Assembly (NCBI GenBank): GCA_035624455.1
Contig: DASPRM010000126.1
Coordinates: 1-43,637 of the forward strand
From: Terriglobales bacterium
GTDB taxonomy: Bacteria > Acidobacteriota > Terriglobia > Terriglobales > Acidobacteriaceae
Direction of reading: 5' to 3'
DNA: 43,637 nucleotides
Below, in pieces: positions 19,151-26,287 of this stretch. Each line of letters begins with the position of its first letter. Position 1 is the stretch's first letter. The position numbers and the translations under genes are program-made. The notes below the pieces were generated by a model. That model made no database searches. It was given only the letters and a program-made list of their open reading frames with translations, and had not been told where the DNA came from.

Positions 19151-20437
19151 TCAGCGGACAGGGGGCAGGGGATAATATCCGCCCTTCGCCGTCACCTTCA
19201 GGTTAGGTCGCTTCACCCGGACTTCGATTTCGCGGTAGGTGCTCGATGGTGTGGCCGGGGTGGTATAGCCGAGTGTGTACTGATTGCGCGCCTCTTCCGT
19301 TACCCGGCTGTAGATTGCTTCGATCGCATCCTGGGAGAACTCATTGAACACCTGTCCGCCGGTAGCGCGCGCGTAGCGCGGCAGAATGTCTCCGTATCCC
19401 TGGCCGGGAATGCGAATTTTCTGCAATTCCCGATAGGGAGGGATGCCAGCATTGCCTACTCCCACGGCATATACCGTAATTTCGTTCGACAACAGCACCT
19501 TAAGCACATCGCTGTAGCTGGCTGAGCTGCGCAGCTCGCGCCCATCGCTCACGATGAAAATAAGCTTGCGGCGATCCCGTTTTTGCTTGGCCAGGTCGAG
19601 TGCGGCGGCCAGTACGGCGTCATTGAGAACTCGCGCATCCGGACGGTAGATTGTGCCGCTCTGGCTGGAATTCACCGTGGCAGATGCACCAGGGTCTAGA
19701 GGATGACTATTGATTGACGGACCCGATCCCAGTGGTCCCCCGATCGCAAACGGACCGGTTTGCTTGCTGCTGGCTGTCTTCTGCAGCTTGCGGAAGACGT
19801 TGGCCAGTTGATTTCCCGCAGCCGGAGTGAATTCCTGTACCTTGGTTACGGTATCGCCATAGGTGTAAATGCTGACCTGATCGAACTGGCCGAAGGCTCC
19901 CACCAGGGCAGGTAGCGTGTCCTGCACCTTCTTAACCACCGTATCTGGCATTCCCAGGTCGAGCACTACGGCGGCGGAAAGGGGAAAGGGATCGCTGGTG
20001 AAAAATGTAATGTTCTGTGCCTTGCCGTCTTCGTAGACGGAAAAGTCATGGGTCAGCAATCCCTCTACCAGATGGCCGGAGCCGTCCTTAACGGTCACCG
20101 GTACAAGCACAAAGTTCACTTCCCTCCGCAGGGTGAAATCCAATGCCGCCCGGCTGTTGGGATCGGGGGCGGGTGCGCTGCCTTCCGGCACCGTGGTGAC
20201 GGTCAGGGGAGGAGCTGTGTTCTGCGGGGCAGGCGCGTCTGGCGCCTGGTTTCCCGAGTCTGGTACTGGCGGGACAGTCGGTTTCGGGAATGGCCGTTTG
20301 GCAGAAGGAGCATCGGGAACCGTCTGTTGCGACTCTCCACTACCGGGCGCCTGCGACAGAAGGGAAGCGCAGGACAACAGAAGCAAAACTGCCGCCGCCA
20401 TTGCCGACCACAACCGGAATCCACCACTGGGAGGCAT
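19151..20437 (-). CDS. Exported VWFA-related protein, metal-site residues lost
   Basis: A 428-residue VWFA-related protein. The open frame continues to 21034, but ATG 20437 has AAAGGAA upstream and starts a signal peptide (FRLWSAMAAAVLLLLSCASL); the upstream part is antisense to the gene at 20567. Residues about 35-100 are a Pro/Ala-rich low-complexity linker. The core has FVLVPVTVKDGSGHLVEGL, HDFSVYEDGKAQNITFF, and a VWA domain in which the MIDAS reads DLGMP (160-164) instead of DxSxS and the Thr position is in DARVLND, although VSDGRE is kept. A loop near 245-285 is Gly/Ser rich. It ends with EEARNQYTLGYTTPA and a GGYYPLP tail. Divergent from the VWFA gene at 20567, with 129 bp between the starts. 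Confidence 0.85.
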   Translation of the reverse strand: MPPSGGFRLWSAMAAAVLLLLSCASLLSQAPGSGESQQTVPDAPSAKRPFPKPTVPPVPDSGNQAPDAPAPQNTAPPLTVTTVPEGSAPAPDPNSRAALDFTLRREVNFVLVPVTVKDGSGHLVEGLLTHDFSVYEDGKAQNITFFTSDPFPLSAAVVLDLGMPDTVVKKVQDTLPALVGAFGQFDQVSIYTYGDTVTKVQEFTPAAGNQLANVFRKLQKTASSKQTGPFAIGGPLGSGPSINSHPLDPGASATVNSSQSGTIYRPDARVLNDAVLAAALDLAKQKRDRRKLIFIVSDGRELRSSASYSDVLKVLLSNEITVYAVGVGNAGIPPYRELQKIRIPGQGYGDILPRYARATGGQVFNEFSQDAIEAIYSRVTEEARNQYTLGYTTPATPSSTYREIEVRVKRPNLKVTAKGGYYPLPPVR

Positions 20438-20566
20438 GGGTTCCTTTCTGGAAGGAAAAACCCGGATTTGGGCCAGGAACGGGCCTGACCATGCATCTAA
20501 TTTACAGCATCCCGATAGGGCTGATTTAGAATTAAGTGGACCGCACCGCGAGGATCCCAGAAACCT

Positions 20567-21598
20567 ATGCCCCGATCCCTCCCCACCGTCAAGTTGGCGT
20601 GGCTTCCAGTCCTCCTCCTTGGCTTTCTTTGCAATCTTGAGGTCCTTGCGCAGCAGGATAAAGCAGATCAGCAAGAGCAGGGAAATGTCCCCACTTTCCG
20701 TTCCGAAGTCAACGTGGTTAACCTGTTTTTCAATGTGAAGGACAAGCACGGCGCGCTGATTCCCAACCTCGCCAAGGACGATTTCGAAGTCTTTGAAGAT
20801 AATCAGCCGCAGCAGATCAAATATTTCGCCGCCGACGCCAATCAGCCGCTGACTCTGGGGATCCTCATCGACAGCAGCGTTAGCCAGGAGCGCGTGCTGC
20901 CGATGGAAAAAGAAGTCGGTGCGTCCTTCCTGCATAGTGTGCTGCGGGACAAGGATCTGGCTTTCGTCATTAGCTTCGACGTGAATGTGGACCTGTTGCA
21001 GGATTTCACCAACGACACGGGCATGCTTAGCCACGCGCTGGATCGGGCCAGAATCAATGGAGGCGGCGGAGGCGGCGGTATCCCCGGTCTAGGCGGCGGC
21101 CCGATACCAACCACCCAGGTCCCCCGAGGAACGCTGCTTTACGATGCGGTTTATCTGGCGTCCTATGAGAAGCTGGCCCGCGAAATCGGACGCAAGGCGA
21201 TGATCCTGCTTACCGACGGCGAGGACCAGGGTAGCCACGAGCGCATTCGCGATGCGATCGAGGCAGCGCAAAAGGCCGACAGCATCGTTTATGTGCTGCT
21301 GATCGCTGACCGCGGTTTTTATGGCGGCGGTTACTCTGGCGACCGCGAGATGAAGAAGCTCTGTGGCGAGACTGGCGGCCGCATGATCGAAGTCGGAAAC
21401 AAGTACGAGAAACTGAAGGAAGGCTTCGATCAGATTGCGAATGAGTTGCGCTCGCAATACAACATCGGATATACCCCCACCAATTCAAAGCATGACGGCA
21501 GTTTCCGTCACGTCGAGATCCGCACCAAGACCACCGGACTCAAGGTGCAGGCTCGCTCCGGATACTACGCCATGGCAAGCGGCAGCAATGGGGACTGA
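20567..21598 (+). CDS. Exported VWFA-related protein with intact MIDAS
   Basis: A 343-residue VWFA-related protein: signal peptide (VKLAWLPVLLLGFLCNLEVL, cleavage near LAQQ), the family strand EVNVVNLFFNVKDKHGALIP, DDFEVFEDNQPQQIKYF, and a VWA domain with all three MIDAS loops intact: DSSVS at 102-106, RGTLLYDAVY for the Thr, and LLTDGEDQG. A Gly-rich loop (about 166-180, mostly Gly) interrupts the domain before PTTQVPRGT. It ends with ELRSQYNIGYTPTNSKHDGS and RSGYYAM. Metal-dependent ligand binding outside the cytoplasm is likely; the ligand is unknown. The start shares a 129-bp promoter region with the gene at 19151. Confidence 0.88.
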   Translation: MPRSLPTVKLAWLPVLLLGFLCNLEVLAQQDKADQQEQGNVPTFRSEVNVVNLFFNVKDKHGALIPNLAKDDFEVFEDNQPQQIKYFAADANQPLTLGILIDSSVSQERVLPMEKEVGASFLHSVLRDKDLAFVISFDVNVDLLQDFTNDTGMLSHALDRARINGGGGGGGIPGLGGGPIPTTQVPRGTLLYDAVYLASYEKLAREIGRKAMILLTDGEDQGSHERIRDAIEAAQKADSIVYVLLIADRGFYGGGYSGDREMKKLCGETGGRMIEVGNKYEKLKEGFDQIANELRSQYNIGYTPTNSKHDGSFRHVEIRTKTTGLKVQARSGYYAMASGSNGD

Positions 21599-21805: not shown

Positions 21806-22963
21806 CTACTGTCGCGGCGCGAAGTATCCCTTGCGGGAGCGTACCTGCAGGCTCTTGTGGTTCTGCGCTACGATCTCGATGCTGCGGAATTTGCCGTTCG
21901 CCAGGAAGTCAGCGGGCTTGTAGGCGACGGCATATTGGCTGCGCAGCTCGTCCTGAATTTCCGAGAAGGCGTTGCTCACGTCCTGAATCTTGAAGGGGAA
22001 GAAGGCGCGGCCGCCGGTAGCGTCGGCAAGCCTTTCCAGAACCTTGTCGCCGCGGGTTTTTACTCCGCTGACATTGGTGCTGATGGCGTAGATGATGACC
22101 TCAGCGCGCTCCGCCATGGCAATCGTTTCTTCCCGCGTCACCCGGCTCTGGTTGTCTTCGCCGTCGGTCAGAAGAATAATGGCGCGGCGGGCGGCCACGT
22201 TCTGGTCATTTTTCATCAGCTTGTCGCGGCAGGCAAAGTAAATGGCATCGTAGAGGGCCGTTCCACCACCCGGACGCAGCATGCGCACGCCGCGCGAGAG
22301 GGCCTCGCCATTGTCGGTGAAGTCCTGGGTGACTTCGGCGGTAGTGTCGAAGCCGAGAACAAAGGCGCGGTCGTAACGTGGACGAATAATCTGACTTAGA
22401 AATTCGACCGCCGCCTCCTGCTCAAAGCGGAAACGGTCGCGGATGGAATTGCTGGCATCGATGAGCAGACCAACACGCAAAGGCAAATTGGTCTCACTCG
22501 AGAAGTTGATGACCGATAGCGGCGGCTTATTGTCATCCAGAACCCGAAAGTCATCTTTACCCAGATTTTTGACGAAGCGGCCGTGCTTGTCGGTGACGGT
22601 GAACACCACATTCACTTCGTCAACCGTCTTGCGAAAGGTCGGCAGATCTTCCGCCGCGGGAGGATCCGGCAGCGCGGCCGAAGGTCCCGGCGGATTGTCA
22701 CGGGGTGGATCTGCGGCAGGCTGACCCCCGGAAGAGGAACGGGCGGCAGCGGCAGAAGGAGGATCCGGTGCCGAAGGCTGACTTGTCGCAGGCTGGTCAG
22801 CGGGCGGCTGGCTTGCCGGTGGATTCGCCGGGGCAGCCCCCCTTTCCATGGCGCGGCTCGCTGACGGAGCCTGCGGCAGATCTTGCGAAGGGGTAGAGTT
22901 CTGTCCCAGGGCAAGAGCAGCCGCCAACAGTCCCAGGCCGATCAGGGTTGGAAGAAACTTCAT
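21806..22963 (-). CDS. Exported VWFA-related protein with intact MIDAS and Pro-rich linker
   Basis: A 385-residue VWFA-related protein (in-frame GTG codons at 22969 and 22972 are alternative starts; the ribosome site is unclear). Signal peptide MKFLPTLIGLGLLAAALALG; residues about 25-105 are a low-complexity Pro/Ala/Ser linker with repeated PADQPA/PPSAAA elements, suggesting a flexible tether through the envelope. The core has VDEVNVVFTVTDKHGRFVKN, KDDFRVLDDNKPP, and a VWA domain with intact MIDAS loops: DASNS (169-173), GGGTALYDAIY and LLTDGEDNQS. It ends with ELRSQYAVAYKPADFLANGK and RSRKGYFAPRQ. It is convergent with the gene at 20567. Confidence 0.87.
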   Translation of the reverse strand: MKFLPTLIGLGLLAAALALGQNSTPSQDLPQAPSASRAMERGAAPANPPASQPPADQPATSQPSAPDPPSAAAARSSSGGQPAADPPRDNPPGPSAALPDPPAAEDLPTFRKTVDEVNVVFTVTDKHGRFVKNLGKDDFRVLDDNKPPLSVINFSSETNLPLRVGLLIDASNSIRDRFRFEQEAAVEFLSQIIRPRYDRAFVLGFDTTAEVTQDFTDNGEALSRGVRMLRPGGGTALYDAIYFACRDKLMKNDQNVAARRAIILLTDGEDNQSRVTREETIAMAERAEVIIYAISTNVSGVKTRGDKVLERLADATGGRAFFPFKIQDVSNAFSEIQDELRSQYAVAYKPADFLANGKFRSIEIVAQNHKSLQVRSRKGYFAPRQ

Positions 22964-23042
22964 CCTCACCACACCATTATATGACGTATAGAACGGGAGC
23001 TAGCTCGACGATGGACCTGATTATAAGCCGAGCAAGCCCAAC

Positions 23043-24293: not shown

Positions 24294-25097
24294 TCAATTG
24301 TGCACCGCATCTGCAAGCACCGGGGCAGAACTTCGGCGCAGCCATAGAACGCCTCCAGCGATGACCAGCAAAATCGAAATCAGCTGTGTGTTGGTCATCG
24401 CACCGTGGAAGAGCGAACCGCGATCGGGATCGCCGCGCAGGAACTCCAGGAAGTATCGCGCCAGGCCGTAGAGGAACAGGTACGAGCCAATCACCTGGCC
24501 TTCAAATTTCTTATGGCGAATTATCCAGAGCAGGATGAAAAAGTTGGCTAGTTCGACCGCCGATTCGAACAATTGCGTGGGCTCGAGCGGCACTCCGAGT
24601 GGTGTTCCTACCCAGGCCTGGGCGAGAGGATTACGGAAGGTGACACCCCACCAATGAGAGGTCGGCTTGCCATAGCAGCAACCTGCCGCAAAGCAGCCGA
24701 TTCGCCCAATGGCATGTCCCAACGCAAGTCCTGGAGCAAAGGTGTCGCACGTGCGCAGCACCGGCATCCGATGCCGGCGAATGTACCACCAGGAAACCGC
24801 CAGGGCAGCGATCAAGCCGCCGTAGAACACTCCGCCCGCTTGCAGAGTCGCTAGACTGAAGATGTCGCTCGGGTGCGCCGAGTACCAATCCCAATTGTTG
24901 AGGAACAAAAGCAGCTTGGCTCCCAGGATGGCGAAGAGCACGGCCAGCACACCCAGATTCCAGGCTGCGTCGGGATCGATTCCCTGGGAGCGAGCGAGCT
25001 TGACGGTGGTCATCAGCCCCACCACTACCCCGAGAGCTACCAGGAACCCATAGGTGGGCAGCGAGAAATTGCCGATCTGGAAGAGTCTGGGAAACAC
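24294..25097 (-). CDS. lgt: Prolipoprotein diacylglyceryl transferase
   Basis: A 267-residue inner-membrane enzyme that moves diacylglycerol from phosphatidylglycerol to the lipobox Cys of pre-prolipoproteins. About seven hydrophobic helices; the Lgt signature is read as GHAIGRIGCFAAGCCYGKPT near 128-147, the Cys-rich variant common outside enterobacteria, with LEPTQLFESAVEL and FLEFLRGDPDRG further on. The start is GTG 25097; only a weak ribosome site is seen. Length matches the family (about 260-290). It lies 168 bp upstream of the pseudouridine synthase start on the same strand and may be co-transcribed with it. Confidence 0.95.
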   Translation of the reverse strand: MFPRLFQIGNFSLPTYGFLVALGVVVGLMTTVKLARSQGIDPDAAWNLGVLAVLFAILGAKLLLFLNNWDWYSAHPSDIFSLATLQAGGVFYGGLIAALAVSWWYIRRHRMPVLRTCDTFAPGLALGHAIGRIGCFAAGCCYGKPTSHWWGVTFRNPLAQAWVGTPLGVPLEPTQLFESAVELANFFILLWIIRHKKFEGQVIGSYLFLYGLARYFLEFLRGDPDRGSLFHGAMTNTQLISILLVIAGGVLWLRRSSAPVLADAVHN

Positions 25098-25202
25098 CGC
25101 GTGTCTACTCAGTTAGATGCGCGACAGTATGCCACTTGTCGCACCTCTCACCCATAGCTCCGAAAAGGCCAGAGCGGGAGGAGGCAGTTCAGTTTAGCAG
25201 GA

Positions 25203-25395
25203 AGGTAAAGCAAAGCCGACCCGCGGGGGCCGTGTGGTGGGCCGTCAATGAACCTAGCCTAGCTAGTGTGGGAACTCGCCGTGATCCTTTAGGCATTTCC
25301 GACTGGCGGAACCTTGCACACCGGACCAATCTACGAGTCGAGCTCCCGTTCATTGAGGTGTTGGTTCAAAAATACGGTTGCCACCATCACCAACC
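25203..25395 (-). ncRNA. Candidate 6S-like structured RNA downstream of zapA
   Basis: A rod-like fold of about 165 nt in a 511-bp region with no convincing gene. Pairs seen directly: TGGTGG (25235-25240) with CCACCA (25381-25386), continued by GTG/CAC; TCAATGAAC (25245-25253) with GTTCATTGA (25348-25356), 9 bp; a central bubble of 12 and 26 nt; GTGTG (25266-25270) with CACAC (25317-25321); CGCC (25277-25280) with GGCG (25305-25308). Closing stem, wide bubble and apical stem are the layout of 6S RNA, and 6S genes follow zapA in many bacteria. On the - strand a C/G-rich palindrome and CTTTGCTTT near 25203-25230 could terminate it. Strand and identity are inferred. The rest of 25098-25608 (25396-25548) shows no gene. 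Confidence 0.42.
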
Positions 25396-25548
25396 TTGCA
25401 GGTCGGCTGCAAAGAGGATGCTAGAGAAAGGTCTTGATCTGCGCAAGTGGTGGGGCGCAAAAAGTTGGAAACCCGAATGCTGAACGTCCCTGGCCCAAGG
25501 TGTCCCAGAGCCAGAACTCAAGTGGGAGCAAAGACTCACGGCCTCAGG

Positions 25549-25577
25549 TGGGAACGGAAATCCTCGTCCGTTCAGGC
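25549..25577 (+). repeat. Dispersed repeat C, copy 1
   Basis: 29 bp (GTGGGAACGG ... CGTCCGTTCAGG) matching 26482-26510 at 26 of 29 positions, in the same orientation. The inner part is palindromic (AACGGA/TCCGTT). The two copies flank zapA and the ZapB-like gene. Confidence 0.75.
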
Positions 25578-25597
25578 GGAGCGCTGCTCCACAGCAG

Positions 25598-25620
25598 CTG
25601 GCCGATCCCTAACCGGCCAG
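25598..25620. other. Hairpin carrying the zapA stop codon in its loop
   Basis: CTGGCCG (25598-25604) pairs perfectly with CGGCCAG (25614-25620); the zapA stop codon (25609-25611) is in the loop. It could protect the mRNA end or terminate, but no U-run is present. Confidence 0.4.
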
Positions 25621-25917
25621 GCGGGTTTCTTCCAGCACTTCATCCAGCGCGCCCGAAAGGGAGTTGGCGCGTTTGTTCAGTTCGGAAGCGATGGAGTCAT
25701 ACTTGCGCCGCAGGATGTGGTACTCATCAGCAATGTTCAAGGCCGCCAGCACGGCCAGGCGCAGGGAATCGACAGTTGCGGTTTGAGCCGCCACGGCGCG
25801 CATTTTGCTGTCGACGTACTCGGCTAGTTTGTGAATATAGTCAGGATCTGTGCCGCGCAGATTGTAGGGCTGATCGTAAATTTCCACGCGCACGCTGTTG
25901 CCGTTGGACTGATTCAA
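25609..25917 (-). CDS. zapA: Cell division protein ZapA
   Basis: A 102-residue cytosolic ZapA, which binds and bundles FtsZ filaments at midcell. The head domain is recognisable: VRVEIYDQPYNLRGTDPDYI, HKLAEYVDSKMRAVA, then VDSLRLAVLAALNIADEYHI leading into a C-terminal coiled coil (LRRKYDSIASELNKRANSLS). Length is close to the usual 90-110. It lies 73 bp after the ZapB-like coiled-coil gene on the same strand, so the two are probably transcribed together. The candidate 6S-like RNA lies downstream. Confidence 0.93.
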   Translation of the reverse strand: MNQSNGNSVRVEIYDQPYNLRGTDPDYIHKLAEYVDSKMRAVAAQTATVDSLRLAVLAALNIADEYHILRRKYDSIASELNKRANSLSGALDEVLEETRLAG

Positions 25918-25990: not shown

Positions 25991-26287
25991 TTATGCCTGG
26001 TTTTCTGCGGCTGTCAGTTCATCAATCTGGTTCAGCATCTTTTCAATGCGGGAACGGACTTCTTCCCGTTCCTTTTTCAGGACAACCACCTCGTTGCGAA
26101 GGGAGTCAATCTCTTCCTCGCGCATCTCCAGTTGTTCGCGCAGGCGAGAGGTGTCGCGCTCGGCAGCGGCTTTGGCTTCGCGGGCCGCCTTCAGCAGCTC
26201 GATCGTGCGATAAACCTTCTCTTCCAGGGAATGAAAATCGTCAGTTTGCATCTCAGCGGGCACTTCACGGATCGCTTTGACAGACAT
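25991..26287 (-). CDS. ZapB-like coiled-coil protein
   Basis: A 98-residue, highly charged protein made almost entirely of heptad-like coiled coil (YRTIELLKAAREAKAAAERD, LREQLEMREEEIDSLRNEVV, LKKEREEVRSRIEKMLNQID). Its position directly before zapA and its composition match small ZapB-like division proteins that bridge ZapA; sequence alone cannot prove homology. ATG 26287 has GGAAGG 12 bp upstream; ATG 26251 (MQTDDFHSLEEKV) is a plausible shorter start. If real, the pair would form a Z-ring stabilising layer at midcell. Confidence 0.75.
   Translation of the reverse strand: MSVKAIREVPAEMQTDDFHSLEEKVYRTIELLKAAREAKAAAERDTSRLREQLEMREEEIDSLRNEVVVLKKEREEVRSRIEKMLNQIDELTAAENQA

Follow-up and report, generated by a model that had tools for sequence, protein, structure and literature searches.

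The 6S RNA gene between zapA and lgt

The window analysed here is the whole contig DASPRM010000126.1 (43,637 nucleotides; assembly GCA_035624455.1) of a Terriglobales bacterium, in which an earlier note, made from the sequence alone, had described a 6S-like structured RNA in the spacer between zapA and lgt. 6S RNA is a familiar bacterial small RNA by which RNA polymerase is shut down in resting cells. The spacer is a real gap of 511 bp (25098-25608), delimited by the reading-frame ends at 25609, where zapA ends, and 25097, where lgt begins. Both flanking genes lie on the - strand, and their identification was borne out by domain matches: the upstream neighbour zapA (25609-25917) matched PF05164 (ZapA) with 70 bits, and the downstream neighbour lgt (24294-25097) matched PF01790 (LGT) with 201.8 bits. 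The assumed acidobacterial setting was supported by related contigs of Terriglobia, Terriglobales and Acidobacteriaceae.

A search with the Rfam 6S model and an alignment of relatives had been proposed as checks, and both gave positive results. The whole window, searched with Rfam 15, contained an RF00013 match at 25214-25407 on the - strand, with 62.8 bits against a cut-off of 46.4 and an E-value of 3.3e-10, in agreement with the identity and the strand that the earlier note had favoured. The model was covered end to end (1-187 of 187), and the borders drawn by eye, 25203-25395, were corrected to those of the match, which give the gene (ssrS) a length of 194 nt. No other Rfam family exceeded its cut-off in the window; two further matches of any family, obtained at a loose threshold in an 801-base stretch, were far below theirs. 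The 6S match was unique in the 4.39-Mb assembly, and according to ARAGORN the window contains neither tRNA nor tmRNA genes.

The upstream regions of the acidobacterial homologues were aligned by the 6S start. This alignment places a -35-like element, TTGCGC, at 25441-25446 and a -10-like element, TAGCAT, at 25418-25423, both on the - strand. The motif TTG(C/T)N..TA(G/C)(C/G/T)AT, which was read from and then counted on the same rows, occurred in 63 of 71 distinct upstream regions. Its spacer measures 17 in 54 of these rows and 18 in the other 9, and its rate in shuffled copies was 0.002. Six of the eight misses came from other families of the class; among these six, L003 and L013 have TTGACC with TAGAAT or TACAAT. 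A sigma-70 consensus scan reported no promoter site in the window. As judged from the aligned sequences, the 6S gene would have a promoter of its own.

In 24 of the 71 distinct rows a further box, CCA(A/T)(C/G/T)WWWTT, precedes the 6S start by 61-65 bases (rate in shuffles 0.005). In the window it reads CCAACTTTTT (25459-25468, - strand). Its role could be that of an activator site or of an UP-like element beyond the -35 element.

We consider it almost certain that the - strand of the zapA-lgt spacer carries a single 6S RNA gene of a Terriglobales-type acidobacterium, which should have its own sigma-70-type promoter and a holoenzyme-inhibiting role. The gene shares with the RF00013 6S RNAs, represented by E. 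coli ssrS and B. subtilis 6S-1, the closing stem, central bubble, apical stem and compensatory pairing, as well as the full-length model match, a predicted purine start of the product RNA (pRNA) and a promoter motif of its own. Its position downstream of zapA also resembles that of E. coli ssrS, whose upstream neighbour we take to be zapA. Unlike the E. coli ssrS and B. subtilis 6S-1 entries, however, it has lgt as the downstream neighbour. The identity that had been assigned by eye is now settled as far as sequence permits, and the gene, its fold and covariation, its promoter motif and its synteny all belong to that level of evidence. Polymerase binding, pRNA synthesis, refolding and release would follow from membership of the family, by analogy with 6S biology in E. 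coli and B. subtilis.

Fold, covariation and distribution among relatives

The predicted fold of the - strand had an energy of -87.6 kcal/mol, compared with a shuffled mean of -67.2 (standard deviation 4.1; z -4.9), and none of 200 shuffles was as good. The 6S layout of closing stem, central bubble and apical stem was present in the consensus fold of 30 homologues. Not every detail of the structure sketched in the earlier note was right. Its two repeat pairings occur in the minimum-energy fold, one of them being the closing stem TGGTGG/CCACCA (25235-25240 with 25381-25386); the other, a 9-bp stem, falls outside the consensus 6S fold and is treated in the next section. The apical pairings GTGTG/CACAC and CGCC/GGCG were absent from the minimum-energy fold, in which the apical arm consists of GGGAGCUCG/CGAGUUCCC, followed by GGUCC/GGAUC and the cap UUCCG/CGGAA. 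Both the Rfam fold and the RNAalifold consensus contain the helix P2, formed by UGAACC on the 5' side (25363-25368, - strand), at the edge of the open central bubble, and GGUUCA on the 3' side (25249-25254, - strand). The GC palindrome followed by GCTTTGCTTT, by which the strand had earlier been argued, does exist on the - strand as a terminator-like hairpin at the 3' end of the gene (25232-25217); it was found by a pattern scan in which about 0.9 such sites are expected by chance.

Covariation was assessed in a 30-row alignment that includes the gene of the window. Standard pairs were formed by 95.2% of the cells, against 88.3% in shuffled alignments and at most 51.0% in slid registers. Changes on both sides were found in 22 of the 42 pairs (shuffled mean 9.4, slid registers at most 14), and none of five covariation measures was reached by any of 500 shuffles. 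The advantage over slid versions is partly expected, because the tested consensus structure was derived from the same 30 rows.

The 3' side of the central bubble of the window RNA is predicted to form a hairpin, CUAGC-UAG-GCUAG (25254-25266, - strand), whose final base doubles as the start of the P2 3' strand. In 65 of 67 distinct rows, the predicted hairpin at this place reached -2 kcal/mol or lower, with varying stem sequences and a mean z of -3.7 against simple shuffles; nine of the 67 rows, which have no GAA anchor in the 5' bubble, were omitted from the per-position table of this analysis. Free B. subtilis 6S-1 is described with such a hairpin on the 3' side of its bubble, and in its short, stable hairpin the window RNA resembles B. 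subtilis 6S-1, not the E. coli RNA (PMC8876501).

The template for pRNA synthesis was placed by analogy. The reference bases, U44 in E. coli and C40 in B. subtilis, are taken to lie three bases beyond P2. These two bases are the pRNA start sites named in the available part of PMC8876501. The third base of the 5' central bubble of the window RNA, C25360 on the - strand, is accordingly the predicted template for the first pRNA nucleotide, which gives the predicted 14-mer 5'-GUUGGUUCAAAAAU. Of 71 distinct rows, 47 have C at this base, 23 have U and one has A, so predicted pRNAs start with a purine (G or A) in all rows but one.

The distribution of the gene was explored in 61 genomes, of which 38, the genome of the window included, had an Rfam 6S match at E <= 0.001. 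Within the window's own family 31 of 37 genomes matched. A clade model, for which 30 of the 38 Rfam matches served as input, recovered four of the six misses in this family, one of them (G024) partially. The remaining two, G022 and G035, had no 6S match with Rfam or the clade model, and the region may be missing from these assemblies, because zapA was not found there either. In a larger draw, a match was obtained in at least 109 of 150 genomes; this is a lower bound and not evidence for loss, because 16 candidates were scored per genome and the known positives G019, G026 and G033, which other searches matched, were missed. One genome of the same order, G163, had two equal-scoring 6S matches (G163:C45 and G163:C67), one of them at a contig end; they are perhaps an assembly duplicate.

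Of 239 named contigs that encode a PheT relative, the best 80 formed an additional sample. Among these 80 stretches, 39 had a 6S match on the pheT strand (35 complete, 4 cut by the stretch end), which is not a frequency, because several of the remaining loci are short; two further - strand 6S rows in this sample are weak mirror images of listed genes. The final comparative set consisted of 77 aligned acidobacterial 6S rows, and the gene of the window, with 178.9 bits against the clade model, was in the better half of them.

The second family of the same order, f2 (G037-G050), gave no 6S match in any of its 14 genomes, either with Rfam or with the clade model at E <= 1. No 6S gene was found near zapA in the f2 loci L042, L044-L049, L052-L057 and L059, and when the Lgt of the window served as the query, the first 1.5 kb or so after zapA yielded no lgt in any of the 14. 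The vicinity of zapA likewise yielded no 6S match at L040, L041 and L043, from three further families, or at L058, though the family of the latter has 6S elsewhere; G051, G053 and G059, also of three further families, had no 6S match with Rfam or the clade model. The result for f2 may fit loss, relocation or strong divergence of 6S RNA alike; these are indistinguishable because the whole-genome search with the clade model scored 93 candidates per genome and the model was built from families other than f2.

Gene order around the RNA recurred in relatives. In the fetched flanks of 30 loci, including that of the window, both zapA and lgt were found in 17, lgt only in 8, zapA only in 4 and neither in 1; some of these loci end at contig ends. 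The five loci with the RNA and no lgt found in the fetched flank bear on another explanation of the spacer, namely that a different structured RNA resembles 6S RNA by chance; it might be an lgt leader, an lgt riboswitch or a 3' piece processed from the zapA mRNA. In favour of this, the match lies on the strand that zapA and lgt share, and lgt starts 116 bp past its end. Nevertheless, the full-length RF00013 match with other Rfam families nowhere near their cut-offs, the promoter motif in most upstream regions and the covariation across the 6S fold make this explanation very improbable.

Several points weigh against the 6S reading itself. The Rfam score is moderate, and five of the 38 Rfam matches (the other 33 being over it) were below the cut-off. 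In addition, the pairing of the homologues leans toward the model fold, because they were found with 6S models. A further point, the predicted fold of the free RNA, is given below.

No paper with 6S RNA together with Acidobacteria, Acidobacteriota, Koribacter or Terriglobales in its title or abstract was found, and PMC2864571, in its available part, names 6S RNA and Acidobacteria, but apart from each other. An earlier listing of acidobacterial 6S genes is nevertheless likely. The gene looks like an ordinary member of its family, in which the modestly new elements would be the long helix described below and the predicted collapsed resting fold. The present set adds to the annotation a comparative collection with a promoter motif, a template site and two central-bubble elements.

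The predicted collapse helix of the central bubble

The 9-bp stem TCAATGAAC/GTTCATTGA, which the earlier note had drawn as part of the closing stem, pairs in the minimum-energy fold (25245-25253 with 25348-25356) but is absent from the consensus 6S fold. Since the Rfam and consensus folds both use GGUUCA to pair with UGAACC further upstream, the 9-bp stem is an alternative to P2: it joins the 5' central bubble to the 3' strand of P2, excludes P2 and closes the bubble. Its 5' arm, UCAAUGAAC (25348-25356, - strand), and 3' arm, GUUCAUUGA (25245-25253, - strand), were assigned from the minimum-energy fold and the pairing probability. The 3' strand of P2 is mostly shared with this helix, which reuses that conserved strand in five of its nine pairs and has no G-U pairs in the window.

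A similar layout is described for B. subtilis 6S-1 and for the 6S RNA of Aquifex aeolicus, where it is called the central bubble collapse helix (PMC8876501, PMC4227106). In both RNAs that helix is inferred to form once pRNA synthesis opens P2 (PMC8876501); the rearrangement in A. aeolicus is called not yet proven (PMC4227106). The helix of the window is a run of 9 bp without G-U pairs, whereas two G-U pairs are mentioned for that of B. subtilis 6S-1 (PMC8876501).

As in other bacteria, the RNA of about 190 nt would mimic an open promoter and occupy the holoenzyme formed by RNA polymerase and its housekeeping sigma factor, which would be held inactive once growth stops. When nucleotides return, the polymerase would start at about C25360 and use the RNA as the template for a short pRNA, predicted to begin GUUGGUUCAAAA, and this synthesis would open P2. 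The freed 3' strand GUUCAUUGA could then pair with the second UGAAC copy in the 5' central bubble, and the collapse of the bubble would help to eject the RNA from the polymerase.

The helix was followed in 67 distinct rows, obtained from the 77 aligned rows after the removal of four without the 3' arm and six duplicates. The longest continuous collapse pairing averaged 6.15 bp, compared with 5.15 bp when partners were dealt out among the rows (0 of 500 as long). Outside a group of 28 rows whose arm begins with GGTTCACC, the averages for the remaining 39 rows were 7.13 and 5.80 bp (0 of 1000); the relatedness of the rows remains in both tests. A helix of at least 7 bp was found in 27 of the 67 rows, all of them among these 39. 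The pairs beyond P2 come as different sets, such as UCAAUGAAC/GUUCAUUGA in the window, GAAUGAAC/GUUCAUUC and UAAUGAAC/GUUCAUUA, and distant rows have others again: CUAUUUGAAC/GUUCAAAUAG in L005 (10 bp), CUUGUGAAC/GUUCACAGG in L016 (9 bp) and a helix of 11 bp in L013.

These observations have to be set against the explanation that the RNA is a true 6S RNA in which the 9-bp repeat is a by-product of shared sequence constraint and not a functional helix. The reuse of the conserved P2 strand in more than half of the pairs would be expected from such a constraint. The 28 GGTTCACC rows keep just 4-5 bp, 12 of the 39 others stay below 7 bp, and L014, L011, L015, L004, L007, L010, L020 and L009 have 3-4 bp, no more than chance. 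Compensatory events are also few. The swap of G and C at arm position 8 amounts to two changes on the tree, and independent pairs on well-supported branches number one at position 8 and one at position 6 (two each on all branches). This tree was built without the collapse-helix columns and leaves 34 of 64 inner branches open, so the test is underpowered; some of its 33 G/C rows are GGTTCACC rows with that pair outside the continuous helix. However, the run length exceeds that with dealt-out partners in both sets of rows, and the pair sets of the three distant rows differ. We therefore regard a mere by-product as unlikely, though it keeps a real share of the probability, and the collapse helix as likely, though not as proven.

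The energy calculations favoured the collapsed state. For the window RNA (203 nt, 3' tail included; the 6S RNA of E. coli was folded for comparison), the collapsed fold had -87.6 kcal/mol and the best fold with P2 enforced -85.8 kcal/mol, a gap of 1.8 kcal/mol that we judge to lie within the error of such energy models. The mean pairing probability in the free RNA was 0.87 for the collapse helix and 0.08 for P2. That the minimum-energy fold of the free RNA is collapsed, without the open bubble, is the remaining point against the 6S reading, and it could mean that this genome has kept a 6S remnant that is decayed or has lost its activity. Yet the collapse helix was also favoured over P2 in 12 of the 27 rows with at least 7 bp (the best pairing was favoured in 3 of the 40 others), so the preference is not peculiar to the gene of the window. 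This gene, moreover, scores in the better half of the comparative set with the clade model and has both the promoter motif and the template base, and a remnant is scarcely probable.

The predicted preference also sets the functional 6S RNA proposed here apart from B. subtilis 6S-1. By prediction, the helix of the window already prevails over P2 before pRNA synthesis, in the free RNA, whereas among the variants of section 3.2 of PMC8876501, compared by description, a free-state helix is predicted for the C44/45 6M mutant and not for wild-type 6M. According to the same paper, a stabilised collapse helix leads to shorter pRNAs in B. subtilis; in an otherwise wild-type RNA the release kinetics are no different, and with an altered P2 release is more complete in 8M and 6M and mixed in 5M (PMC8876501). 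If the long helix is functional, the acidobacterial RNAs would be natural analogues of these stabilised mutants, and they would allow a direct test of the effect of the collapse helix on pRNA length and release. A more far-reaching reading is that the 6S RNA of this group of Terriglobales is a two-state switch, in which the duplicated UGAAC competes for one GUUCA strand and the free RNA rests collapsed, so that the polymerase would have to catch it in the course of transcription or open it actively. In that case, unusually short pRNAs might suffice for release. We put this forward as speculation that is considerably more likely to be wrong than right.

Other reading frames in the window

Three long frames between 19151 and 22972 (19151-21034, - strand; 20567-21598, + strand; 21806-22972, - strand) share a similar motif, for example EVNVVFTVTDKHG, and look to us like von Willebrand A-type proteins, an assignment that we make as an assumption.

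Upstream of zapA, a reading frame of 98 aa (25991-26287, - strand) encodes a coiled-coil protein with sub-threshold matches to ZapB (PF06005, 25.0 against 31.5 bits) and to the coiled-coil family PF13870 (28.4 against 31.6 bits). The protein is possibly a ZapB-like partner of ZapA. A relative of this frame adjoins the 6S gene in 18 of the 30 loci, that of the window included.
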